From assembly GCA_012976225.1 (NCBI GenBank), contig JAAVVG010000003.1:1-64000 (forward strand): DNA of 64,000 nucleotides, in the 5' to 3' direction. How positions within the stretch are numbered: the stretch's first letter is position 1; every line of letters begins with the position of its first letter. Of this stretch, positions 20,606 to 62,342 are shown one piece after another. Under the pieces are notes generated by a model. That model saw only the letters and a list, made by a program, of their open reading frames with translations. It searched no databases and was not told the DNA's origin. This DNA comes from Golubevia sp. BC0850 (Eukaryota; Basidiomycota; Exobasidiomycetes; Golubeviales; Golubeviaceae). The translations under genes and the position numbers were made by a program.

Positions 20606-21876
20606 CTAACTGGACGACTCCTGCTTGATGATAGAGGCAATCAACTTCGTGAAGTCCGACGTTTGAATTTGCTCTGCATGAGAGCCCTTTGGAAGAGGGA
20701 AAAGTTCAAGGGAAAAAGAGAATCAGCTAGAGGAGAGGTGAGACGGCGGACCAACTGTAATTTGAGAGTGGACTCACCCTCAAAGATACAAAATCCACCT
20801 TGACGAAAGGAGGCGTCCTTACCTTCGACTGCTCTTCTTCAGAAACACTTGCGATTCCATCCTTTGGGAACTCCACAGGTTGGGTCTCCTTTTCGCTAGA
20901 ACCTGTCAAAGTGACCAATCTCTTGATTCCGGCCAGACTTTGCCTAAAGGTCAAAAGCTCGTCGTCTCTTGAATGAAGAATATAGACGTGAGGGAGTCGA
21001 CCCTTCCCTAGCTTATGAGAGTAGTAGGCTGGCTTATTGGAACTTGAAGGAAGACTCCACGACTCGATCGATGAATCCGACAGAAGCTTCTGTGTTGAGA
21101 TGGAGAGAGGAGTTGGGAATTCGGATCCTGTTGGAGAGTTGAAAGCCTGAGAAACGAAGGAGGTGTAGCTCGGGTACTCTTCTAGGAGCGGCAATAGAGA
21201 GAATATTCCGTCCTTCAGATTTGAGAGAAAAGATGTAGAGTCAGACAATGGACGAAAAGTGCCCTTCAAGAGGCAACAAGAAACAACGACTTACGACTAA
21301 GATCCAGCTTCTTACAGACCTCCTGACTTCCTCGTCAAGTTCTGGCATCGAAGAGTCAGACCCATTTCCTCTCGTCGAAAGACAAGCTGCAGCTGTCATG
21401 AAAGCTCCAACAGAATGACCAAAGACATGGACGTTGTCCACGCTGTACTCGTTCTTCCTTCCTTGACGCTCTAGCACGAGGTATCGCAGAGCAGCAAAGA
21501 CATCTTGCAAATGAGCTGGGTGAAACACTTCTGGAGAATCCTTCCCATGAGGTTTGACAGAGATGCGATAGTCTACAACTGCAACTGCGATGGAAGAGTC
21601 CTTGGAAAGGCGCCGGGCAGTTTCTCGATGATCTTGACGTTGTTCGCTGACCCAAGCTCCTCTGTGAAAGGAAGAGAAAAGAGCAGGGAGATAAGAAACT
21701 GGCAGTGCAGCAAAGATTAGAAAGATGGAAAGAGATACGAACCCGTGAATGAAGATAGCCAACGGACGATTGGAAGAATCTCCCTTTGATGGAAGGAAAA
21801 GATCGACGCACTGCCTCTCGTTCTCAGTAGTTAGATATGGAATATCGAGTATCTCTGTTGAAGTTGCTGAACCCAT
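20606..21876 (-). CDS. kynurenine-formamidase-like alpha/beta hydrolase
   Basis: Four exons: 21743-21876, 21295-21661, 20778-21263 and 20606-20686; 355 residues. Joining exons 1 and 2 restores IFIHGGAWV, the oxyanion-hole HGG[A/Y]W motif. Further on are VAVVDYRIS, HPAHLQDVFAALRYL and the nucleophile elbow VFGHSVGAFMTAA (G-H-S-V-G). The acidic member is likely in ILHSRDDELL, and the catalytic His is in the small last exon, GSHAEQIQTSDF. The order and spacing match Bna7-type N-formylkynurenine formamidase of the kynurenine/NAD pathway. Other small carbohydrate-esterase-like hydrolases share the fold, so substrate is inferred. The first donor is GTTCGT, weaker than others here. It shares 132 bp of upstream DNA with the polo-box gene. 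Confidence 0.72.
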
Positions 21877-22008
21877 CTTGTGATTTGGGATAAGGTAGAG
21901 TGCGGGAAGGAAGATGGTCAAGAAACCAGAAGAATTTTTTTGTTCTCAACTTCCTTATTTTCCCCAAACGGCACTTTCGGGACGCATTCCGTTCATTTCA
22001 TCTCTTTG
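21877..22008. promoter_or_regulatory. 132-bp divergent promoter
   Basis: This is the only space between the start codons of the formamidase-like gene and the polo-box-like gene. No specific site is assigned. Confidence 0.4.
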
Positions 22009-23958
22009 ATGTTTCTCAGAAGTCATAGGCTCTCTAATCGGCCACCTCAACCATCCACTACTGAGGAGGAGAACCAGAGTTGGCCGCCAGCAAGAGCAGC
22101 TCCCTCAACGCTGAATCGAAGAAGATCGGAAAGAAGAGCTACTGGAGCCTACAACAGTCGAACTCTGGATCCAATCACATCCTATGGTGACTTTGAGAAC
22201 GATTCAGAAGGTCAAGAAGCAGAAGGATCATCTGGGAAAGTAGCTGGAGTAAGCCCTCCCAAACAAGCTGCTTCCTCTACCAACTGGAACGAGCCGAGGA
22301 CGGCAGGGACGACATCTGTCTTCAACTATCAGCCTCAGTATACAGTCAATGCTGGTTGGAGACCATCTCAAGAGGAGCAAGAAGAGAAAGAAGAACGTAC
22401 AGATCTCAAGACTGATCCTCGCAAGCAACCTCTTCGCAGACTTCTAGTTCAAACGAATGCAGTCTCTCCAACCCATCAACATCGAGGTTCAGAAATATCC
22501 ATATCGAGGTCTGTAGCTCAAGATGGATCTAGAGAGGTTCCAAGCCTGAACACACCATCAGTACGAAACTCTTCTTCTCTGACTTTACGTTCAGTGCTGG
22601 CTAATCAGAGGCCTGAATGGTTCGTCTCCAGTCTGGATAGTCCATTTTCGGAGGGAAAAACAAGAGTAGAAAGGTCTCCAGAGACGGGTAGAAGATCCGG
22701 ACAAGGAGTGGAGACTAGAAGCTCTGGCCCTAAACCGAAGAGAAGAGTTGTCTCGGCTCCCACTCGAAGTTTGCAAAGTCATACCACTTCAAACACCTCC
22801 AATCCTCAAGTTCAACCGACAAAGCTAGATTTCAGAGCTTCCCAACCTAGGCTCCTCTCAACTCTTTCAAGACATCAAGCCGCTGGGAGATCAGCCTCAG
22901 TGCCGAACGCCCAACCATCCTACGCCCCTCAGACTATTTCAAATGCAAAGCATGAACTAATAGTCTCAAGTTTTGCTATATCTCTAAGATCTCATCACCG
23001 GACTCGAAAGGGCGATTTGAGGATTCTCAAAGATGGCAGCGTCGTCTTTGGTCTATCTTCTACCAGCAGGCCGGACTCTTCTAAATCCATCGTTAGACTT
23101 TGGATTTCTCCTTCAGGTTTAAAGATTCGTAACATTTCAGCTCTGCCGTCAAGAGACCCGGATCCAGATTCAGATTTCTCATCTCCGTCGAAACTGTCCT
23201 CTATTCCACTACAATTCCTTCCTCAAGATCTGAAAGCAGCCTACCGACACTGCTCGAGGTGGTTGGATTCAATTCGTTCAAAGATTATCCTGGGAGTCTT
23301 TCAAGTTCCAAGTACAAGCACTGGTGAAATGTTGGTCTCGATGGAGGAAAAGTTCAACATTACTGTTATGGCAAATGGGAAAGAGCCAGATTTCGTGAGA
23401 TCAAGTCGAAGTGTTAACTCTGAATTCGATGGAAATTACCAGGAAGAGAGCAAGATTCAAGTTCTAAGAAGGAAGGGAATCGTGATCTTTGAGAAAAGAA
23501 CTATCAAATTGAACGGAGATGAAGGAAGCAAGAAAATTCTAGGAGATAGTGAATATTCTAGAAAGGTTCTTCCGTTGGTGGAAAGAGATTTCTCTCTTGC
23601 AAGCTCATCCTCCAACAGCAATCCTTCTTCTCTAAGTCTTTCTTCCTACGAGCTTAGCTGTCAATGCACGAGTCTCATTTTCAAGTCACTGGATGAGGTC
23701 GAAAGATCAGAGATCTTGAGTGCTTTAGGATGTGGGGTGATTGTCGACACTTTTTGGAAGGCTTGGGAGAGCGGGATTGGGAGGGGAATTGGAGTAGAGG
23801 CTGAGGAGCTGGATTATCAAGAAGGAGACAGTGTTGTTGAATTTGGAATTGAGGGGTTAGATGGTGAGATGGAGACTCCACCTGTCAGCAAAGAGAGGCA
23901 GAGAAGGCTGAAAAAATTGGAAAAGACATGGGCTCGAAGGAGCCTTGGAGCCGCTTAG
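22009..23958 (+). CDS. Plk4-type cryptic polo-box-like protein without a kinase domain
   Basis: A single exon of 649 residues from the first ATG of the frame. Residues 1 to about 300 are disordered, basic and Ser/Pro/Thr-rich, with no kinase signature (no glycine loop, HRD or DFG). From about residue 320 the sequence resembles the cryptic polo boxes of Plk4/SAK: ILKDGSVVFGL then IVRLWISPSGLKIRNIS (first box), LPQDLKAAYRHCSRWLDSIR (compare the Plk4 linker LPEKYWKKYQYAARFVQLVR), then a second beta-rich unit (EMLVSMEEKFNITVMANG, KIQVLRRKGIVIFEKRTIKL) and a helix YELSCQCTSLIFKSLDEVE (compare HRICLALESIISEEE). It ends in a basic coiled tail. The comparison is from memory, so the call is tentative. 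Function is unknown; a spindle-pole or scaffold role is speculation. Confidence 0.48.
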   Translation: MFLRSHRLSNRPPQPSTTEEENQSWPPARAAPSTLNRRRSERRATGAYNSRTLDPITSYGDFENDSEGQEAEGSSGKVAGVSPPKQAASSTNWNEPRTAGTTSVFNYQPQYTVNAGWRPSQEEQEEKEERTDLKTDPRKQPLRRLLVQTNAVSPTHQHRGSEISISRSVAQDGSREVPSLNTPSVRNSSSLTLRSVLANQRPEWFVSSLDSPFSEGKTRVERSPETGRRSGQGVETRSSGPKPKRRVVSAPTRSLQSHTTSNTSNPQVQPTKLDFRASQPRLLSTLSRHQAAGRSASVPNAQPSYAPQTISNAKHELIVSSFAISLRSHHRTRKGDLRILKDGSVVFGLSSTSRPDSSKSIVRLWISPSGLKIRNISALPSRDPDPDSDFSSPSKLSSIPLQFLPQDLKAAYRHCSRWLDSIRSKIILGVFQVPSTSTGEMLVSMEEKFNITVMANGKEPDFVRSSRSVNSEFDGNYQEESKIQVLRRKGIVIFEKRTIKLNGDEGSKKILGDSEYSRKVLPLVERDFSLASSSSNSNPSSLSLSSYELSCQCTSLIFKSLDEVERSEILSALGCGVIVDTFWKAWESGIGRGIGVEAEELDYQEGDSVVEFGIEGLDGEMETPPVSKERQRRLKKLEKTWARRSLGAA

Positions 23959-24098: not shown

Positions 24099-27000
24099 TT
24101 AAAGGTTGATTTCTTGCCCGGCTTTCCTTTCAGGAGATAGTCCGTGATCTAGAACGTTTGATTCCGAGCTTGTGTCTAAAGCCGACTCCAATGAGATGCC
24201 GACCTGTTCCTCAAGACTTTCAAATTGTCCCAAATCGACGTCCTCCACGAGCCTTTCTTCAGATGGAGCGTCTTTGGTTCCGGCATCTTGAGAGGTGTCG
24301 ACAACCCTTAACTGGATTCCCTGATCATTGCCCCCTCTCTCGATCCATCCTTCTCTTCTGATTGCTTTCTTCTTGGCCTTGGCATCTTTCCTTAGTTTCC
24401 TCTCCCTATCTTCCCTCGCCTCCTTCTCAGCTTCCTCTAGATCCTTCCTTTTTCTTTCTTCCTCCTGGACTCTGTATCTTTCTCGTCTCGCTTCACCCTT
24501 TCCTTTGTAAGCGTGAATAACCCATTGGACCCAACTTCTGACTACAAGTCGTCCATTTGACGTCAGCCTATGATAAAGAAGTTCTAAATCTCTGAAAGTG
24601 AGGAAAGGTGGGGTTTCTAGGTTCAAGCTTGAAGTTGGAGATGGCTTCTCAAACTTTTGAAGAGCAGAGAGAGACGTTTCACTTGGAACCAAAGCTCCCA
24701 TGACCAGAGCTGGAGGAGGCTTGATCCTCTTTTCTCCTCTGTGACGATCAGTAGAAGTCGATTCGAGCTCAGTCGAGTCCACGTTCTTGGGTGGTGGATA
24801 CCTCTGAACAAACTTCTTCAGGGTCTCGAGAGCGTCTCTAATCCTGTCCAACTTGGTCAAAACTCTGATTCTAGCAGACCAGACCTCTCTAATTGTTTGA
24901 GAGTCTAAACCCCATTGTTTCCTAACTCTGGCATTCCACTTTTGTTCGTCAGCCAAGTTCTCCAAGAATCTGAAAGATTTGAAAGCTTCGAAACTGATGG
25001 TTTCAACTGATGATCTATTGACTGGATCTTTGATGGAAGCAGTCGAAGCTAGCTCTAGAGAGAGTAAATGAGTGTGACCAGTTCTAGGGACGTTGAATTG
25101 AGAAAATAAATCTTCAGAACTAGATGAAGATAGAATTGTTGATGTTAATGGAGTTGAGTTCCTCGACTCTTTTGGTAAAGAGAGATCTATACCGACGTTT
25201 GATGAGTGCCATTCTAATCTCTGAGAATGAGGCAAATGCTGAGAGTGGACTGACAGATAGGAATTGATGACTTGAGGAGTGATTCTGACATTTGACAAAG
25301 CTGCTTTGCCAAATCGATGCGTCGTTTCTGACTGAAGATCTGAAGCTGTTGGTTGATCAGCTACGATCTTGGCCATAAGACCTCGTACCTCTTTGATGAC
25401 TTCCGCAGAGGTTTGAGGAGTTGAGAAAGTGAAAGCAGCTACTGCATCATCAGCTGTCTCTGTATTTGAAGTTGAATCGACCTCCTGAGACGCGGTTTGA
25501 CTTGTTGCAAGAGCCTCTTGAACCAATCCTATACTTGACGTTGACTTGTTCTGTTCTAGAGAGGTCATGTCTTCGTTCTTGACTAGACCATCCGACTCCT
25601 CTCGGTCGTCCCGCATCTCTTCCTTCTCCTCAGTCCCTTTCTCCGCTTGCTCCTTCAACTTCATCTCACTTCTCTTCAACGGAGCTTTATAACTAGCGTA
25701 GCACTTGAAGATCCAAGATATCGTCTCCTCATCAGGTCTCTTGTCCGTCAGATCCAGCAAGCTTTCTTCATCCAAAAGACCTAATTCTATATTCATTTGA
25801 GCTTCTCCATCGTAAAGTGGCGAAGTTGCTCTGAGCATTTCAGCCAAAAGCCATCTCGCCCTATGAAGATCCTTTTCTCTGGCGCACCCTGCTATTAAAG
25901 CATTATAAGTGTTCCTATCCGGAGAAAATCGAAGATAAGTCGGTTCCTCTTCTTCATTTGAGAACTCTTCTTCTCCCCCATTTAATTTGGAAAGGTAATT
26001 TTGCTCCCTCTTGTAAATATCAGCACTGATTCTCTCTTCTTCTAGCATACACATTTCTCTAAACAATTTCCAAGCTTCTTCCAGATAATCTTTCCTCTTA
26101 GAACATGCTAAGATTAGAGCATTATAAATCTCGACATTAGATCTAACTCCATATCGTTCCTTCATCTCTCTGAAGAGGTCCAGGGCTCTTTCTGCATCTG
26201 GATGTCTTGGATTAGATCCTTGTTCTGCTGGAGGTAGATCTTCGACTTCGTTAGGTTGTGGAACTCCATTCGCACAAGCTCTCATCATGATTGAATAGAG
26301 AGGAGCGTCTGGAACCGAATGAGCCGACAATCTCATGTGATAGAAGAGGTTCCATGAAAGGGACTGGACTGACCGAGATGGGTTCTTGAGAAGAGAATTG
26401 ATTACTAGAGTGTAGGTTGCTATGCTTGCTGGAGTTGATGCATCTTCAAATGTAGTCAGGAGATTCAGAGCTGGAGTGAATTGATTGGATCGGATGTGAG
26501 ATTTGACTAGTGAGTGGACAGTGTGGCTTGAGGGAACAAGGCCAGCTGGAGGGAGGATGGAAGAAGTGCAAGGTTTAGCTGGGTACCGAAGAGAGAACAT
26601 GGGGACAAGCGATTGACCAGAAACATACTCACATTTCTCAAGGTAAGCAAGAGTTTCTTGACATCTCTCGACATCTCCTCTGTCGGCATAAGAATCCATG
26701 ACGTCGTCGAACAATTTGAGGTTAGGCTTGTAACCCGCTCTCTTCATCAGAGACAGAGTTCTGGCCAAATTGGCATCGTCTGCACTATGAGACTATGAGA
26801 GCATAGGGATGGAATGAGAGAGCGAGAGAGGAATGGAAAAGGGAAAGAGATGAGAAGAAGAGCGGCGAGTGAGAACCTCTTTCTTCTCCGATGCTCCTCT
26901 CCACTGGGCCTTCACCGGACCGGACTTCCTTCTTTCCGTTTAGTACTCACGAAAGAAACAGCTAGAGCAGTCCACTCTTGAGGAGTTGCGAATCCCATAG

Positions 27001-45623: not shown

Positions 45624-48600
45624 TCAGGAAAACTTGGGATCTCTGATAACCGGACTAGACTCAACAGAGCCTGAAGGAGTCGGGATTGGAGTCGATTCTG
45701 CTGAGGCTTCTAACTTTTGAAGTTTAGGAGGAGCTAGACTTGAATTTGAGAGTAGTCGTAGTCTAGACGGGTGACCGATCTGCTTCGAATTGGATCTTCG
45801 ATGAGAAGTTGCACCAGAACTTGAGTTGCTATGAGAGAGTGATCGATGATTCGTCGGAGGAGATTGAGATCTTGATTGATGAAAGCTGACGGAAGCTGGA
45901 AAAGAAGTGGAGTTGGGGGTCGGATTTGAGGAGAAACTTGAATGTCCATTGTCGCTTCTAGAAGCATTCGCATCCTCGTTCCCACTTTGATACCCGCTTC
46001 CTAAGCTACTGAACCCAGATACTGAACCAGAGTTTGAGGTGGATCTTGGCAGGTGTAGCATTGTAGTTGAAGAGCTGTGCTCATCGAGCGAAACCACTGA
46101 ACCAGGTCTAGATGAATCAGAGCCAGAGGTTGGATACTTGCTCGAGTTTCCCAGGAAAGAGTAGAACCAGCCAGAACTTGAATTTGGAGAACTCAAATTC
46201 GGGGATCCAGAAGGGGGCGTGTTACTCGGAAGGGGCTGGTTGATCTGAGGTTTGTTGGAGAGCGATTCAGGTGGAGAAGTTCTTGACGTATCCTGGCTGG
46301 TGCAGGAAGATGGAGATCTAGCTAAACCAGAATCGTAAGCGAGACCCAGGACTGAACTCGAGGAGGAGCTGTTGGGGAGAATGACTTGAGGCGTAGCTGA
46401 AGTCGGAGATCCTTCGTTGGAAAAGATGGACATGCTTGAGAACATGTTGAGAGCAGTCCATGAGTCCAAACTCTTTCTCCTCGGATGAACGTTCGGTCTT
46501 GATCTAGGAGTGATAGTACCAAGTCGATCGGAGGAATTCGAGTAGTTGGAATCGTTCGAACTCTGATTGGTAGGAGAAACGGGCGGAGACCTGTCGCTCA
46601 AAGCTCGAGACATGGATTGAGTCCAAGAATGATTGGATCCGGAGCTAGAATTTGAATTCGAGTTTGAGCCGACAATTCGACTCTTTGGAGCGGCATGTGT
46701 GTTGAGGCTTCTATTTGAGATCTCGCTTCCCGATCTCTCCAAAGCTGCAGCTCTCTCACCAAAAGACATGGAGGATGTAACTGGTCTTCTATGCCGCATG
46801 ATGATCTGTGGTCTGATTTGAAGTTCGGATGAAGAAGAGGAAGGACTTGAAGGATTGCTTGTGAGGGAAGTAGCTCTTGAATGTGAGTCCGAGAATTGGA
46901 TTGATTGACTCCCACCACTGCCACTAGAATGATCCAGTCTATTTGATCGAAGACTCGATTCTCGAGAAGATGAGAAAGTTGGAGATGGATGAGATTCTCC
47001 TTGACATAGAGGAGAAGAGTTCTCTTGTTCCCTTTGATCGATCTGAACTCCTGATTTCGATGAGTCTCCTGTAATTTTGGAAGTGGGCGATACCTCATCG
47101 ATGCTAATCGAAGCTATTCCTTCTCCAACGCTTCCTAAGATTGAACCAGGTCTGGGATGGGTTGATCTAGCGCTCACTCTTCTGGTGGCATGAGATGCTG
47201 GAGTACCTGGAAGTTTGAAGGTGTTCGGGTTGCTCCCTTGATGTCCTTCATCAGTTCCAGCGTGGGTAGGTGTGAAGTAGCTGTTGACACCTCCGAGGCT
47301 TTCTCCACTTTTGTTGAAGGCGACGTTCGAGAGAGGCAGGGAGATCCTTCTTTCTCTAGAGGCCGCATCTATAGCATAAGAACTAGATCTTGAGGTCGAA
47401 GGTCTCTGAGAGGAGGGCACCAGTAGATCTGTTTGGGAGGTCCAGTTTCCGTCGATAAAGAGAGCCGATTGGGGAGACAGCGACCTGACGTGAGAAGGGT
47501 TGTTGCCTGATCTGACTCTATTGATGCTCGAAGTTGAGGTTTGAGACAAGGCTTGACTCGTTGGGTTTGAATGAGAGTGAGGCGATTCTTGACCACTTCG
47601 TTGAGATCCTGAGCGGGATAGGTGAGACCCGGCAGAGGTGGTTCTCGTCATTTGACCCGAAACCTGACGAGAGGTAGCTGCAGAGGCCAATTGAGCAGCC
47701 AAAGGATCCGTTCGAAGCCACTCGACGACTAGATCGAACGTAGTTAAGGCCCATCTGAGCACCACGATAAATGCAAGAGAAAAAGGTCAGAACCAGAAAA
47801 AGTACGACATCGATGTTTTCGACGTCTTCAAATTTCTGCTCACCTCTTCTCATTCTCGACCTCTTCACTTCCAAAAGCCTTGATGTAAGCCAACTTGCTG
47901 ACCAAATCAGAACAACCCGATTGAATGATCAAATAAGCCAACGTCGGAATTAAATCATCAGTCGATAATTTCAGATCCGTCCTAACTTCCTTCTTCCCAT
48001 CAACAGAAGAAGCAGAAGAGAAGTTGCGATTCAAGTTCGTTTGCTGAAAAGCTGAACAAGAGGAGGATCTACTATTTGAAAAGGTTTCCGAAGAATCAAG
48101 TCTAAGTGAAGGGGCTTTCTCTGTGAAAGCGTTTCCGATCTCGGTGAGAACGTTTCCAAAGGTTTCAATAGTTTCTTGAGGAGTGTGAATATCTTTAGAG
48201 ATCATGAATTGATGTCTCTCATCGGAAAGAGAACAACTAGAAACCAATTCCAGAATCTCTTTTTCGAATCCAAAAGGATCGCTTAAGAACCTAGTGAGTT
48301 CAAGTTGAATCTCATTCTCTTCTTCGATTGAGCCAGTTTCAACTCCTAAACCTCTAACCATTCTAACAGCCATTCTCAGCCTCTTTTCGCCATCGTCTTG
48401 AACTTTGAACCCTTCCAAATTCTCACAATTCGAGATTGCTGAATTCCTCCTTGATGAATCGACTCCAAGGTATTCTGAATGGGGAGTCCTGTCAACGAAA
48501 CTACATCTAGAGGTAGGTCTGTTATTGTTGGAAGTTGGTCTTGAGAAGTGATCAGTTCCAAAATCTTGGATGGATTCCTCTCCTGCTAAATTCAAATTCT

Positions 48601-51026
48601 TCTCTTTCCAGACTTTCTCAATTCCTAATTCCTTCATCCCAATCCCACCATTTCTATAATTTCTCAAAATCAGATTCAAATTCTCGTCTCCATCTCTCAC
48701 TGATTTCTTAATGGGAGAATAGAATTTGGAGAACATCAACCCAGAGGCTAAATTCTTTACGATAGGTTTGAGGTTTGATTTCAAATTGAAAAGACTCGTC
48801 GGATTGATTTGAGAAACTGGCTCCCAATTTGAAGGTGTTTGACTGTTTTCCAGAAGACTTTTCACTTGAGCGTCGATCCAATCAAAGCAAGGTCTGTAAA
48901 TCTTTTCTTCGACTTTCCTTGAGGAATATTCTTCGAATCCAGTGACATAGACGAAAGATCTCATTGAATCTACGCAGATCATTAGATATCCGAGAAGACT
49001 TCGAACCAAAGTTTCCACAGATTTGACGTCAGACGAAGACATTTGAACCGAAGAACTTGAAGTGTTGGGTGGTAGGAGTAGAGATGGAGAGAATGAAAGA
49101 AGCTTCGATAGGTCCAGCAGTAGTCTCGGAAAATGAACAGCTGTTGAATCGTTGAGAAAATAAGGAAATGAGTCACCATTGATGGCGAGTCTGAAAGGAA
49201 GAGCAGCAAGCGTCAAAGAAAACCCACTCACCTATCTGAACTACCTCTTTTTTTCCATCCCCACCATCTCTCAAAGAGCCCTTCATCCTAGTCAAAAGAG
49301 GAGAAGAATTCCTCCTATTCTTCCCCCCTTTCCCAGGAAACGCTCCTGAGACTGGAAGTCCAAAGCCTGAACCTAAATCTTCTCTCCCTCTGGCCTGTAG
49401 ATTCACAGCCATGTTCGACGCCTCAGATGGTTGTGATTCAGAACCAGAAGTGACAATTTGATGTTCATCCGAGAGAGCTTTACTAGGGAAAGCAATAGAA
49501 TGGCTAGGAGAAGGAGGACCGGAGGGATTAAAACCTAATCGACTCCCTTCTGACGTATTCGAAATTTTAGAATTTGAGGTTGGAAAGCCAAGTGGAACTC
49601 CATCGATTCTATCTGATGTTGAAGGTTTCATTCCCTCGATTTCATCTTCATCTTCATCATTAATTTGACTTTCTCTCCATTCCCTTTCTAAATCTTCCAA
49701 GTCAAGTGGTAAAACCAATCCATCAACATTGATGACTCTAACCCTTCTTCTTTTCGCTGAATTTCTATTCTTCTCAATCTCAAGCTTTCGAGCTTTCTCC
49801 AACTCCCTTTCCTTTTGTTCTAAAGCTTGAGTCTTTTCCTTTCTCTCCTTTTCCCTAACATAAGACGCTCTAGATAAAACTTCGAATCCTGCGATAGTTA
49901 ACCTTCGAGCTAGTTGTGGAGGGACATCTGTTTGAGTTCTTTGATTGGAAGAAGATGGTTTTGAGGTAGAATGGTGGTCGAAAGTAGAAGTGGGAGTTGG
50001 GTTTGGATTCGGATAAACAGTGATTTCTCCCGTCACTTTTAAAGTTTTATGTAAAGTCTTTCTTATTGACTTTTCAGATCCTTGAAGGTTCCCCTCGTTA
50101 TTAGAAGACCAACCAATATTCAACCTAACTTCTTCAACTTGATTCGAAAGTGACAATTCGATCTTTAAACCTAGATCCTCCCAATTCTTGGCCTCTTGTT
50201 CTTTCTTCTTTCCAGAAATCTTTGAATGATCTGAATGACCAACCTCTCTAGTGAATCGAGTATGAGACCTAACATCTTGGTCTAAAGCCTCAGTAACCAA
50301 TTTCCTCTGCTCCTCATCTTCATCAACCTTTCCCTTTCCTTGATTAGGCTTCACCTTCTCATTCCCAACTCCTTTCCAAACTCCCTCAACTTGATCTTCC
50401 GTGAGACAATGTGCACCCAACCATTCTAAATTTCCCTCCCATTGCCTGCCGAGCGTCTTGAGACTGTTCAAATTAGGTAGAAGTACCAGACTTGAAGCTT
50501 CCCATGCTTTCGAAAGTTTAGGATCCGAAGTCAAAAGATTGTATATCGGATTCAAATCTGGATCATCATCTTCGTCTTCATCTTCTTGTTGAGATGAGGA
50601 GGTAGAAACTGAAGATTGAGATGGAGAAAGAGGTACTTGTCCTTGTGATCCTGAGCTCTGCTCTGATTGAAATACCGGAGCTTTAAATTCATTGTAACTG
50701 TTTGAATTCAAGAAACCGTTTGAACCAAGTGTTGAAGCTCTTCTTCTAGAGTTAGAATGGGATGATGATCCATCAGCAAGTGATGAATCGGTCAGAGGTC
50801 CATAATAACTGTTCTTCTTACTCCTCTTGGAGTTGGATCTTGAAGTCGAAGCTGCCGAATTGAGTGAAGAAGTTGTTAGAATCGGGTGTTGAAAGGATTG
50901 AGATCTTGAATGAGAGAAACTCGATGATGATGACTGGCCAGAAGGTGAAGGAGATTGAGAGGGTGAGTTTGGATGTTTGGATTTCTTCTTTGTTAAGAAT
51001 AAGAACTTTTGAAAGGCTGATGCCAT
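45624..51026 (-). CDS. large VPS9-domain protein, Rab5-GEF-like
   Basis: Three exons: 49232-51026, 47844-49140 and 45624-47754; 1,740 residues. The VPS9 core spans the exon 2/exon 3 junction: TDDLIPTLAYLIIQSGCSDL, VSKLAYIKAFGSEEVENEKR, WALTTFDLVVEWL, and it is preceded by helical segments (LKPIVKNLASGLMF, FGNVLTEIGNAF) as in Vps9/Rabex. VPS9 domains exchange nucleotide on Rab5-type GTPases at early endosomes. More than half of the protein is Ser/Asn-rich and disordered, with no further domain that I recognise. The exon 1/2 intron must end at the CAG near 49141: a nearer CAG at about 49196 gives the wrong frame. Confidence 0.8.
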
Positions 51027-51498
51027 TTTATGGGGATGGGGAAAGGATTATGGAGAAGATAAGAAAGAGGATGGAGGGGAAAAGATAGAGGGTTGCTATT
51101 CACAGTTAATCGAGGATTGATGATGAACGGAAGAGAAGAGGATGACTTTCCCTTTGCTTCCCCTCAAAAGGATGAGAAAAGGTGGAAGGAAGGGAAAGGA
51201 AAGAAAATGAGCAGAAAAGAAGGAAAGAGAAAGGAGATGGGAGATGGGAGATGGGGTCCTGAAGGTCCCTTTGTGAGTGAGTGTTCGGCATCCTCTAGCC
51301 GTATCGACCTCAATCCCACTCCTCACATTTACAATGATTCTGATTTCTTCTTAACCATTCTTTCAACCTTTACAATTGTTTCAGTTTTCACCATCTTCTT
51401 CACTTCCAAGACTCTTCACGTGCTCAAGTTGACCTCTTCACACTTCGAGACGCGTCGGTCTGTTGTTCTACAAGAACCCACCATCAGCTTGAAAAAGG
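51027..51498. promoter_or_regulatory. divergent upstream region (VPS9 gene / CENP-L candidate)
   Basis: 472 bp between two start codons in head-to-head order. Both strands carry open but compositionally biased frames that I take as non-coding. Confidence 0.35.
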
Positions 51499-52925
51499 AT
51501 GAGCCAAACGAAACAGAAACCTTCCAAGAACAAGAAAAGAGTTGATCAAGATCAAGATGAGAATTGGGCAACAATTCAAAGTGAGATACTTTTCCTGATG
51601 CTTGCTTGAGGCTTGATGCTGATACTACCTACTACCCTCATCTCCTTCATCTCCCCATACCCTTCACTCAGGAACTCTTCTATCTCGAACTTTACATCTT
51701 CACTCATTATCTCCAATAAACGTTCCTCTTCTATCGTCCTCATCCTCATCCTCAGCTTCAACTTCAACGCCTCTCCTATCTTCTCCACTCTTCACCTCTC
51801 TCTCATCTCAACTTCTATCCTACCTAAATCTACGTCTATCAGATCCAACAGATCCAACTTCTCTGATTTCAAATGATCCAACTTCAACTTCTGATCTTCA
51901 AGATGATCTCACCACGCGGAATGCTAACAACAAAAGAAGAAGGATAGAGATGAACAAAGTGGGTAAAGTTAGGATGGCAAAGTTGGAGTTAGAACTGGAT
52001 GATGATGATGATGATGATGGTCGGCAAGAAGAGGAAGATCAAAAACTTTGGTGTGTAGAGATCGAAATGGGAAAACCAGCAGAGGAAAATGGAGAGAACG
52101 CTTCAAAGAAGTCAAAGGGTTCTGATGGTGAATCTACTACTACCACTTCAACTTCAGCCTCATCTGAACCTCAAATCTCGAATTTCTGTCACTTAATCTT
52201 TTGTCCTGATCTATCAAAGAAGCATCAAAATAGGAGCAAAGATAAGAAGAAGAGAAGCAAAGGTGATAGGTCCTTAAACTTCCCATTACTCTTGACCAAA
52301 CATTCAACTTCCACCGATCCAATCACCTCTAGATTCATCTTGAATTTCGCCCTAGAATGGTTCACTACTAGATTTGATTGTAGGATCTCTTCTTCCTCAA
52401 GCTCTTCATCAACTACTGAGGTTACAAGCGGAATGGAGGCCAATTTAGAAGCTAGATTCAAAGGGTTTGAATTGGAGGAATTGGCAGAGGAGATTGTTGA
52501 GGAAGGGTTGGGATTGGGTTTGAGTCCAAAGGAGAGTAGAATTGAAGATAAGATTCATGACAAAGGTCAGAAACCTATTGAAATGGCTTGGTTATTACCT
52601 TCTCAAGTTGGATCAGCTAGTTCAAAACAAAGTGGAATTCAAATGACGAAGTCGAATGGTCCTAGCCCTAAATTATCTCAATTAACTTTAACTGTTCCTT
52701 GGAAGGTTTGTTTTGAGATGTTGAAAGGAGATGGAGAGAATAGAAGAGGAGATTCAAGTGATGGTGAGTTCTCTTTGCTGTCCTTTCATTGAGGTTCGAT
52801 TCGGTTTGGTCGATATGGAGGAAGACCTTCTGAATAATTCGGATTGGCTTCAAAATTTCAATTGCACCGTTGCTGAGCCATCTGCGGTCGTCACCGAAGG
52901 TCTACGCGGAGAGAAAAGAGAGTAG
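51499..52925 (+). CDS. CENP-L / Fta1-like inner kinetochore protein (candidate)
   Basis: Three exons: 51499-51580, 51672-52763 and 52825-52925; 424 residues. Exon 1 ends ENWATIQ and exon 2 opens TLLSRTLHLHSLSPINVPLL, like the N-terminal WT..RLSPL segment of CENP-L/Fta1. A Ser-rich stretch, an acidic run (DDDDDDDG) and a basic stretch follow. The C-terminal half has SRFILNFALEWFTTRFDCRI, then KPIEMAWLLPSQ and LSQLTLTVPWKVCFEML, matching the order of helix and beta motifs of the CENP-L fold. CENP-L pairs with CENP-N on centromeric nucleosomes in the CCAN. The match is from remembered patterns, and the last exon boundary (GAAG acceptor) is weak. Confidence 0.5.
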
Positions 52926-58875: not shown

Positions 58876-59153
58876 ACACTTGAACAGCTGTTATTGATTG
58901 ATTCTCCTTACTAGATTCTGTATTTGATTTGAATCAGCAGCTTTGAATTGAATCCATTGAAATGGTGTTCAGGTCGAGAGAATAACACTTTTAGGCTGGA
59001 AGATCCTTCTTCTCCCACATCAGCTCAACCACAACCCATCAGCTCTTTTTGCTTTTGCTCTCCATTAGCTTTGCTTTCTTCTTCCTTTTTACTCTTTTCT
59101 CTGTAAATCAGGAAATAGAAGACGGAAGGGAGGGAGGAGCTAAGCAGGAGAGA
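58876..59153. promoter_or_regulatory. divergent upstream region of CCA1 and the 1,062-residue gene
   Basis: 278 bp between the first start codon of CCA1 and the start of the next gene, both likely encoding mitochondrial proteins. No factor site is assigned. Confidence 0.35.
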
Positions 59154-62100
59154 ATGAACCCAGTAGCAGCAAGAAAGTTAACAGCTGCTTGCAATCCTCC
59201 AGTCTTAAGCTTTCTATGTCCAATCCTATTCAATACCAATTCCAAAAGAATAACTAAAAGCAGACGAGTGAAGCTATTAAGTACTTCAACTTCAACTAGA
59301 GTTACCTCGGATCCTCAACCTTCATCTTCTTCTTGTTCAGATTCAACCACTACCGCTTCCTCCCGACAGAGACAGGTTTGGGATAGACCGAGGCAAACTC
59401 AAACATCAAGATCTCAATTCATTAGCCTCAAGGGAAAAGAGAGAGAAGTACAGGTTCAGACAGAACCTCCGAATCACCAACCTACTCCTTCCACTTCTTC
59501 CTCTTCTTCGAATCATCCTCAACGATTCAGCAACAATCATAGTGCTGCTTCCACTTCCACCACTTCATCAAATTCAAACCCAGAGCCTGAAGATCTTTCA
59601 ATTCGGATAGGTGGATCAGGTCAAGGGGAAGAGCAAATCTCAGCTCCTCGGAGTCAATCACACAGATGGAAGGAATCAGATTCAATCAGTACGTCTTCTT
59701 TCGATCCAGATCTCAATTCTAGTGATTCTTGGCGAAGTCCTAGCTTTCAATATGACTCTCTATCAGAATTGAAAGCCAAACAGAAGGAAAGAAGCTTGTC
59801 TGAAACAGAAGTGATAGAAGTAGATCAATCTCTTCTGCCCAAAATCTTCAAAACAACCTTCACGAAACTCCAAACCTATCATTCTCAACTCTCAATTCCT
59901 CAACTCTATTTCTTGACTGCTTTGAAGCTCAAACTCGATCCTAAGTTTACCAAGTTATCTCCAAGTCCAGATAGAAATGAGAGGAACTCGAAAACCACTT
60001 CTGATTTATGGAGGTTTTTCAATCAGTCTTTAACTGACGATGATGCTTTTATTACTTTAAGAACTGAATTCAAAGAATTCGAACATGGCGATGAGGATCA
60101 ATCTTTGGGTTTACCTGTGGAGATTTCAGTCGAAGCTTGGGAAATGGTTTTGAAATCAAGTTATCATTCTAGAGATCTAAGAAATTTAAAATTGTTTAGT
60201 AAAAAAGCTGAGAGATGGGAGAAGAAAAGATTTCAATTCCAAAGGAATCAAGAAAGATTTAGGTTGAGAAATCTAACTCGGAATTTACAGCTCTCCATAG
60301 CTTCAAAAGAAGGAAATTTAGAATTTTTGAAGGGAGAAAGTTTTAGAATGGAAGTCGAAAGTCGGTCTTCAATTCCTGTTCCAAGTCCAAGTTCAAGAAT
60401 GAAAGAAGCTGGTTCTGGGATTGGGATCTTTGACTCTGAAGTTGCTTTTCAATGGAATGCAATCTTGGGGATTAGAGAAAGAGATTGGGCTTCAAGTTTC
60501 AATTTCGGAAAAAAAGTTGAAGATCGGAAATCTAAAGAAAGACAGAGTTTGAGAGAAATCCAACTTGATGAAGAAGAGAGAATGAGAGAAGAAGGAGAAG
60601 TCGAGATGGAGATAGATCTTTGGGGTAGAGAAAAGGAGAAGCCTTCGATTTTGGGAAAACCTTTACCTTTACCTTCAACTACTAGGTTTCCGAAATTAAG
60701 TAGAAGTAGAGAAAGTCTGGAGGTTCAGTTGAGGACTTCAAGAGGTCAGGCTTTGAGAATCAAACCCAAGAAGGGAGATCTAGAAGAAGGTTTAGAGAAC
60801 TTGTCAAAGAGAGATAGGGAACGATTGAATGGGATTAGAAATGAAAAAGAGAAGAGTAAAGAAGGAATTTATGATCCTCATTCGAAAATTAGAGAAGGAG
60901 AGAAAGGAGATTTGGAATTTGTTGGGAAAATGTTTGGGAGTTGGTTGAACGAGAGAGGAAGGATTGTTTCTGTGAAATCAAATCACGAAGTCAAAAGAGC
61001 TTTAGAATCCAATCAAGATGTTCTTCAATCTAAAGTTCTTAAGTCAAAAGCAAGTTCAAGTTCAAACCTTGTTCCAGAATCTCAATTTCCAATTTCTAGG
61101 AGATCAACCAATTCATCTTTACCTCCCTCTTGGCTTTTACTTTCAATTCTCAAAAATCATGTCAAAAAAGGTGAAGCGAAAGAGGCTGAAGATTTAGTTT
61201 TCAATTATTTGAAGGCTTTGACCACAGACTTTGATCATTCTCAACCTCGAGAAGAAGTTCTGGAAAATAGATCAACAAATCATCCCGTTACTAAACCTGA
61301 TCTTCCAATTTCTGGAGATATTCTTCTGAACTTAGTCTTAAGAGCTAGGATTTGGGAAGAAGAAGCTGGAGTATCAGGATCGGAAGAAGGAGAAATCGGA
61401 TCTAGAAATGGAAATTTAGGGTTCGAGAAATGTTTAGAGACTTTCGAGAAGCTGGGAGGTGAGAGAGGAGGCAGGTTCAAAAGAGAAGTCGACAGTCGGA
61501 TTAGAGAGTGGAAAACTCAGGATTCAGTTCAAGTTCAGGATCAAGAAGAATTTCAAGATCAAATTCCAGTTCCATCCAATTCAAGCTCAAGTGTCTCACT
61601 CCAACCAACTGAGAACTCTATTCTCATCTTGTTGAACTCTTTAAATCGAAGATATAGAAGAGTTAGAATTGGGTTGGATTTGATCTCTTCTTTTGAGAAG
61701 GTATGGCCTGGAAGGTTTTCGAGTTGCAGCTCAAATTCAAGCCTCTTGGAAGATCAATCAAATCTCTCAGTTCTAAATTCTCCGCTCCTAGGAAATGGTA
61801 AAATCTTTCGAATCCTCTTGAGATGGGTTCTAACCTCTCTAGAAAAGGATTCGCGAAAAGACAAATTCATCCAAGAGATCTTGAAACTTTCGAAAGCTTG
61901 GAGAAGAGGTAGAGAAATGGAATTAGGTCTCAATCTTACATTAAATCCAACTTCGAATCTTAAGCACACTTCTTCGATTCTGCAACCTCAATTGCAAAGA
62001 AAAGAATTCTTCGGTCCGATGAAAGAATCAAGAGCAGATAACTTCAGATGGGAAACCTTTGGAATGGAGAAATGGGCTGGAAGGGAAAGGAAATTGTGGA

Positions 62101-62342
62101 TTGGAATTGAGAAGAAATTGATCGAGAGAGAAGTTGAGAAGGAGAGAAAAGAGAAAGAGAGGAAGAGAATCAAGTTTTTTGGAGAGCAAGAAGCAATGAA
62201 GAGGAGAGGGAAGTCGGTGAAAGTTGAACAGATGAGAGAGGAAAGGGAGGAGAGGGAGCCGATGTGGGAAAGGGAACAGGATGTTCACGAGATGAGGAAG
62301 AATGAAATTGAAAATTTGGGAATGGAATTCGGAAGGGGCTAA
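59154..62342 (+). CDS. probable mitochondrial helical-repeat (PPR-like) protein
   Basis: A single exon of 1,062 residues from the first ATG of the frame; the open frame reaches further upstream but without ATG. The N-terminus (MNPVAARKLTAACNPP, later KRITKSRRVKLLSTSTSTR) is basic and hydroxylated, as in mitochondrial presequences. After a disordered Ser-rich part come amphipathic helix pairs spaced like PPR or related repeats: LPKIFKTTFTKLQTYHSQL, SVEAWEMVLKSSYHSRDLRN, PPSWLLLSILKNHVKKGEAK, EAEDLVFNYLKALT, DILLNLVLRARIWEEE, ILILLNSLNRRYRRVRIGLD. The last 60 residues are a highly charged coil. No enzyme motif is visible. Expected role is mitochondrial RNA metabolism or translation, by inference only. 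Confidence 0.7.
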   Translation: MNPVAARKLTAACNPPVLSFLCPILFNTNSKRITKSRRVKLLSTSTSTRVTSDPQPSSSSCSDSTTTASSRQRQVWDRPRQTQTSRSQFISLKGKEREVQVQTEPPNHQPTPSTSSSSSNHPQRFSNNHSAASTSTTSSNSNPEPEDLSIRIGGSGQGEEQISAPRSQSHRWKESDSISTSSFDPDLNSSDSWRSPSFQYDSLSELKAKQKERSLSETEVIEVDQSLLPKIFKTTFTKLQTYHSQLSIPQLYFLTALKLKLDPKFTKLSPSPDRNERNSKTTSDLWRFFNQSLTDDDAFITLRTEFKEFEHGDEDQSLGLPVEISVEAWEMVLKSSYHSRDLRNLKLFSKKAERWEKKRFQFQRNQERFRLRNLTRNLQLSIASKEGNLEFLKGESFRMEVESRSSIPVPSPSSRMKEAGSGIGIFDSEVAFQWNAILGIRERDWASSFNFGKKVEDRKSKERQSLREIQLDEEERMREEGEVEMEIDLWGREKEKPSILGKPLPLPSTTRFPKLSRSRESLEVQLRTSRGQALRIKPKKGDLEEGLENLSKRDRERLNGIRNEKEKSKEGIYDPHSKIREGEKGDLEFVGKMFGSWLNERGRIVSVKSNHEVKRALESNQDVLQSKVLKSKASSSSNLVPESQFPISRRSTNSSLPPSWLLLSILKNHVKKGEAKEAEDLVFNYLKALTTDFDHSQPREEVLENRSTNHPVTKPDLPISGDILLNLVLRARIWEEEAGVSGSEEGEIGSRNGNLGFEKCLETFEKLGGERGGRFKREVDSRIREWKTQDSVQVQDQEEFQDQIPVPSNSSSSVSLQPTENSILILLNSLNRRYRRVRIGLDLISSFEKVWPGRFSSCSSNSSLLEDQSNLSVLNSPLLGNGKIFRILLRWVLTSLEKDSRKDKFIQEILKLSKAWRRGREMELGLNLTLNPTSNLKHTSSILQPQLQRKEFFGPMKESRADNFRWETFGMEKWAGRERKLWIGIEKKLIEREVEKERKEKERKRIKFFGEQEAMKRRGKSVKVEQMREEREEREPMWEREQDVHEMRKNEIENLGMEFGRG

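Follow-up and report, generated by a model that had tools for sequence, protein, structure and literature searches.

A kinase-less protein of Golubevia sp. BC0850 with a probable Plk4-like polo box

In the 64,000-nucleotide stretch of contig JAAVVG010000003.1 analysed here (the window), from the basidiomycete Golubevia sp. BC0850, an intron-free gene at 22009–23958 of the plus strand encodes a 649-residue protein, P0001, that has no kinase domain and in which residues 310–434 most likely form a divergent polo box, closest to polo box 1 (PB1) of Plk4. On balance, we favor the view that the gene product is a non-catalytic Plk4-type polo-box protein serving as a kinase-less docking scaffold. If so, part of Plk4 would have outlived both the kinase and the centriole in a probably centriole-less fungus, and a remnant of the centriole-duplication switch would operate with neither.

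The candidate polo box and its likeness to Plk4 PB1

The candidate box (unit 1; 22936–23310, +) was delimited by sub-threshold Pfam matches, shuffle tests, comparison of a structural model with known folds and a four-way alignment. Its model is predicted to contain five strands followed by a helix, the same order of strands and helix as in PB1 of the Plk4/SAK cryptic polo box (CPB; PF18190/PF18409; 4g7n, 4nk7, 4n9j, 6n46). A sequence-only reading of the window had proposed that the C-terminal half repeats the Plk4 cryptic polo-box elements, and the three sequences it quoted are all present: DGSVVFGL at residues 342–349, WISPSGLKI at residues 365–373 and the linker helix LPQDLKAAYRHCSRWLDSIR at residues 404–423. 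The sole Pfam match of the whole protein was to Plk4_PB1 (E 0.17, sub-threshold), and the E value was 0.051 for residues 301–594 and 0.0076 for residues 314–433, covering profile positions 14–106 of 107.

Pairwise comparisons point to the same residues. The local alignment scores to fly and human Plk4 PB1 are 89 and 72 for P0001, and 84 and 70 for its fungal relative P0003. Of 20,000 shuffles in each case, none reached the fly score for either protein, while 5 (P0001) and 22 (P0003) reached the human score. Further shuffle tests against Plk4 PB1 gave up to 111 of 20,000, for an overall range of p <5e-5 to 5.6e-3 across both fungal proteins. None of 407 other pieces of the Golubevia genome scored as high against PB1, and the top scores of pieces from the proteins themselves were 47 for the serine-rich N-terminal parts and 44 for the part following unit 1. 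The alignments of P0001 to PB1 hold a single register from strand through helix and share IL, IS..G..I and LP......Y....R.....SK, which are also in register in the four-way alignment. The helix that closes the box, LPQDLKAAYRHCSRWLDSIRSK (residues 404–425; 23218–23283, +), is supported by profile comparison, conservation and the four-way alignment: it sits in the best-conserved 25-residue block (80%), its cysteine, C415, is also present in P0003, and profile comparison with PLK4 (hhalign) picks the same helix with a score reached by 0 of 400 column shuffles.

We also examined an AlphaFold model of unit 1 that was built without PLK sequences. Foldseek returned human Plk4 as the first match (E only 0.73). 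VIA-align placed polo boxes in 22 of its 23 first rows; among them, eight Plk4 CPB entries align over 84–107 residues with 13–21% identity, and a ninth, 4n7v, aligns at its PB2 with 6% identity.

The model thus appears to share the general polo-box fold with the polo-box domain (PBD) of Plk1/Cdc5 (PF00659) as well, and the box could have been derived from a duplicated Plk1/Cdc5 PBD, its likeness to Plk4 PB1 being a divergence from the phosphopeptide-binding form. We regard this origin as unlikely. Pfam returns Plk4_PB1 and no POLO_box match, the five Plk1 PBD entries in the VIA rows align over 83–84 residues with 12–13% identity, and the organism's own Plk1 boxes, which were cut by eye for this comparison (PB2 was also joined by eye), score near background (763–1140 of 20,000 shuffles, p 0.04–0.06), whereas Plk4 PB1 scores far above it. 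The Plk1 polo-box histidine serves phosphopeptide binding, and it has no equivalent in P0001, since unit 2 and the tail lack histidine altogether, the last one in the protein lying no later than residue 414.

A quite improbable alternative is that the likeness is fortuitous, P0001 being a rapidly evolving fungal protein, rich in serine, whose domain of strands plus helix is unrelated to polo boxes. Several observations speak for it and weigh against a polo box, the first being that every single score is weak. All Plk4_PB1 scores lie below the curated cut-off of 26.4 bits, crops of P0001 also match Arc1p_N_like and DUF7903 at E 0.06–0.19, and P0003 has no Plk4_PB1 match, its best Pfam matches being of the chance type (Neur_chan_memb, E 0.056; MRP-L47, E 0.17). 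Because its matches are sub-threshold, P0003 is unmatched and unrelated families appear at E 0.05–0.2, Pfam alone is insufficient for the polo-box claim. In its best local alignment with fly PB1, P0003 is shifted in register across the helix, its best local alignment to human PB1 has the helix but not the preceding strands in register, and the four-way alignment brings P0003 into register under the guidance of P0001. The hhalign match has a probability of 11.5% over its 41 columns, and a profile of six CPBs gives P0001 2.9 bits (20 of 4,000 own shuffles) and P0003 1.9 bits (17 of 4,000). Model confidence is low, with predicted local distance difference test (pLDDT) values of 41 for the tandem model of both units and 52 for unit 1; the best Foldseek E value for the unit 1 model is 0.73, and the VIA Z scores are below 8, middling by the tool's own scale. 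A PDB sequence search with P0001 or with P0001 and P0003 gave no match, and a search of a viral structure library gave nothing useful; neither result says much. Against a chance likeness, the Pfam, pairwise, profile and fold comparisons of P0001 converge on the same residues, P0001 and P0003 both beat their own shuffles, and the other genome pieces fall short of their scores. The assignment of unit 1 to PB1 draws on this combined evidence, in which no single test passes a curated threshold and the results for P0003 are partly contrary; a second look at the register of P0003 led us to lower our confidence in it slightly, from high to fairly high.

Gene architecture, relatives and a possible second box

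The frame opens with the ATG at 22009 and closes with the stop at 23956–23958; its translation is free of stops for 649 codons within a stop-to-stop length of 695. A Pfam scan of P0001 found no kinase domain. The divergent neighbor, an alpha/beta hydrolase by Pfam (first coding part 21241–21876, −; likely ATG at 21876), is separated from the gene by 21877–22008, exactly the 132 base pairs that the sequence-only reading had counted, and downstream a pentatricopeptide repeat (PPR) protein frame, also assigned by Pfam, ends at 24099 on the minus strand. These positions leave no space for a kinase on either side, and together with the Pfam scan they rule out a fused kinase, so that the earlier claim of a kinase-less protein stands.

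Two protein searches, which covered about 5.8 billion proteins (source tags include nr and UniRef), returned only P0002 and P0003 among the matches listed; distant orthologues may be missed, because the searches are seeded by exact 5-residue words. P0002 is nearly identical to P0001 and represents the same gene from another source. P0003 is a relative of the same architecture: its 654 residues align with P0001 over 639 columns at 43% identity (53% over residues 305–590), which marks the frame as genuine. No relatives were found in viral contigs or GTDB contigs, and a search of the organism's genome (25.8 Mb, 64 contigs) found no paralogue, the second row having an E value of 0.045.

The N-terminal part (residues 1–304; 22009–22920, +) is basic and serine-rich and, judging from its composition and uneven conservation, probably disordered; the islands kept in P0003 are LDPITSYG at 53, PLRRLLVQTNA at 141, LRSVLA at 193, WFVSSL at 204 and RRVVSAP at 245. 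Unit 1 is basic in P0001 (isoelectric point 10.5) and mildly basic in P0003 (8.8). The C-terminal tail (residues 594–649; 23788–23955, +) keeps the motif TPPVSK.R.RRL..LEK.WA..SLG in P0003, and its isoelectric point is 4.7 (acidic) in P0001 vs 10.1 (basic) in P0003.

Between these parts lies unit 2 (residues 426–593; 23284–23787, +), possibly a second, very divergent polo box, with borders taken from the low-confidence tandem model. In that model, DSSP assigns strands up to residue 522 and helices after it. VIA aligns the tandem model along both boxes of a Plk4 CPB structure and lists polo boxes in 16 of 50 rows, with nine unrelated rows ranking above the first of them. The sequence tests count against unit 2 as PB2: its scores are not above shuffles (p 0.29–0.52) and Pfam Plk4_PB2 does not match it. 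Foldseek with the tandem model likewise listed no polo box among 50 rows, the best (E 0.066) being to unrelated folds. The support for unit 2 as a polo box consists of its element order and the tandem-model alignment. Thus the proposed likeness to the Plk4 tandem holds for the first unit, through Pfam, shuffles, profile and the fold of the PLK-free model, and finds no such sequence backing for the second. The conserved cysteine pattern proposed for the closing helix is borne out only in part: of the four cysteines of P0001 (415, 551, 553 and 575), C575 is kept in P0003, while C551 and C553 of the second unit are not. PB3 was not seen: after residue 522 the tandem model (pLDDT 41), from which these borders come, has helices and no strands, and 56 residues follow unit 2, whereas the Plk4 PB3 chains in the VIA rows span 78–88 residues. 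P0001 therefore differs from Plk4/SAK in having no kinase, no recognized PB3 and a PB2 that is unrecognizable by sequence.

Kinases and centriole genes in the genome

A further difference from Plk4/SAK is that the genome showed no Plk4-like kinase among the loci examined. POLO_box matches two adjoining places, C2:714238 and C2:714731 (the latter below cut-off), and the exons preceding them encode a kinase of the Plk1/Cdc5 type, the one such gene found. We compared 20 loci, drawn from 90 match rows of which the other 70 were weaker, with human PLK4 and with pieces of the organism's own Plk1, and judged the 19 non-Plk1 loci by eye, their segments resembling kinases of other families. The Plk1/Cdc5-type locus scored highest against the human PLK4 kinase domain (206 bits summed), the 19 others reaching at most 157 bits. 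At 16 of these 19 the PLK4 score exceeded that of the organism's own Plk1 query, which is incomplete, and for these reasons PLK4-versus-Plk1 scoring alone cannot sort the loci. None of the 20 was conspicuously Plk4-like, although a Plk4 kinase divided among short exons could escape such a survey. The best single-exon match to the human PLK4 kinase, at C63:85443, looks like a GIN4/HSL1-type kinase, and C62:567666 resembles another kinase of the CAMK type. Aspergillus nidulans AN8190, considered as a possible Plk4, was dropped, a published paper listing it as CRK7/CTK1-type. A protein search aimed at diverse Plk4 sequences gave, among the best 120 of 559 matches, mammalian proteins wherever the organism was named.

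When the genome was searched with Plk4_PB1, Plk4_PB2, SAS-6_N, Radial_spoke and the fly CPB, no match appeared; these blanks say little, for the searches had no positive control and Plk4_PB1 failed to recover even P0001. The content of the genome also marks it as very probably fungal: Chitin_synth_2 matched 17 stretches (best 621 bits), a family that also matched 4 of 14 control genomes and so is not exclusive. A search for 5.8S rRNA gave no match.

Proposed origin and role

The organism likely relies on spindle pole bodies and lacks centrioles. According to published surveys, Plk4 is present in chytrids and lost from yeasts (PMC6070874), and chytrids were the exception among the fungal genomes surveyed, the others yielding no centriole-biogenesis proteins (PMC6559791). 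It is conceivable, and we put it forward tentatively, that a lineage losing centrioles and the Plk4 kinase kept the targeting module of Plk4 and re-used it as a structural scaffold at spindle poles (or at the kinetochore); the module would have arisen as a Plk4 stripped of its kinase at centriole loss, or as a copy of such a module. Set against this proposal, one report describes fly Plk4 expressed in fission yeast as not localizing to the spindle pole body (PMC6559791), which argues mildly against an old shared dock.

PB1 and PB2 of Plk4 are described as forming homodimers and as using basic residues to contact acidic stretches of Cep152 and Cep192, independently of phosphorylation (PMC4530586). 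By analogy, the box region of P0001 may be a phospho-independent docking and dimerizing module that, free of a kinase, would work as a scaffold or adaptor docked on a structural protein. Going by the family, the spindle pole body would be the most plausible docking site and the kinetochore a less plausible one, and short motifs of the N-terminal part and tail might recruit further partners. Such a protein would offer a direct handle on polo-box function apart from the kinase, and possibly a piece common to spindle pole bodies and centrosomes.

Polo-box proteins lacking an active kinase exist elsewhere. Mammalian PLK5, a member of the Plk1–3 branch, is not known to have a functional kinase; in P0001 no kinase domain was found. 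KKT20 of kinetoplastid kinetochores offers a precedent, being a divergent polo-box protein that has no kinase and coexists with a bona fide Plk (PMC4821238). That P0001 belongs, like KKT20, to a separate line of divergent polo boxes that stand alone, acting as structural kinetochore or spindle components seems the least likely of the alternatives, as P0001 lacks the Cys-rich region, is nearer to Plk4 PB1 in sequence and, beyond the fungal pair, has no sequence match among those listed by the two word-seeded searches. We did not find a kinase-less Plk4-like protein of a fungus described in the titles or abstract openings of the literature searched.

Some other features of the genome and window were also noted. 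The segment C1:144942–145172 encodes a PACT domain of the Pericentrin type (E 1.4e-19) that might serve to mark the spindle pole body of this species. Three long frames in the window have no Pfam match at 1e-3, namely those of 1115 residues at 58995–62342 (+), 720 residues at 45624–47786 (−) and 624 residues at 49173–51047 (−). A 389-residue frame at 51623–52792 (+) matches Pfam CENP-L, an inner-kinetochore protein, above cut-off (E 6.4e-6).
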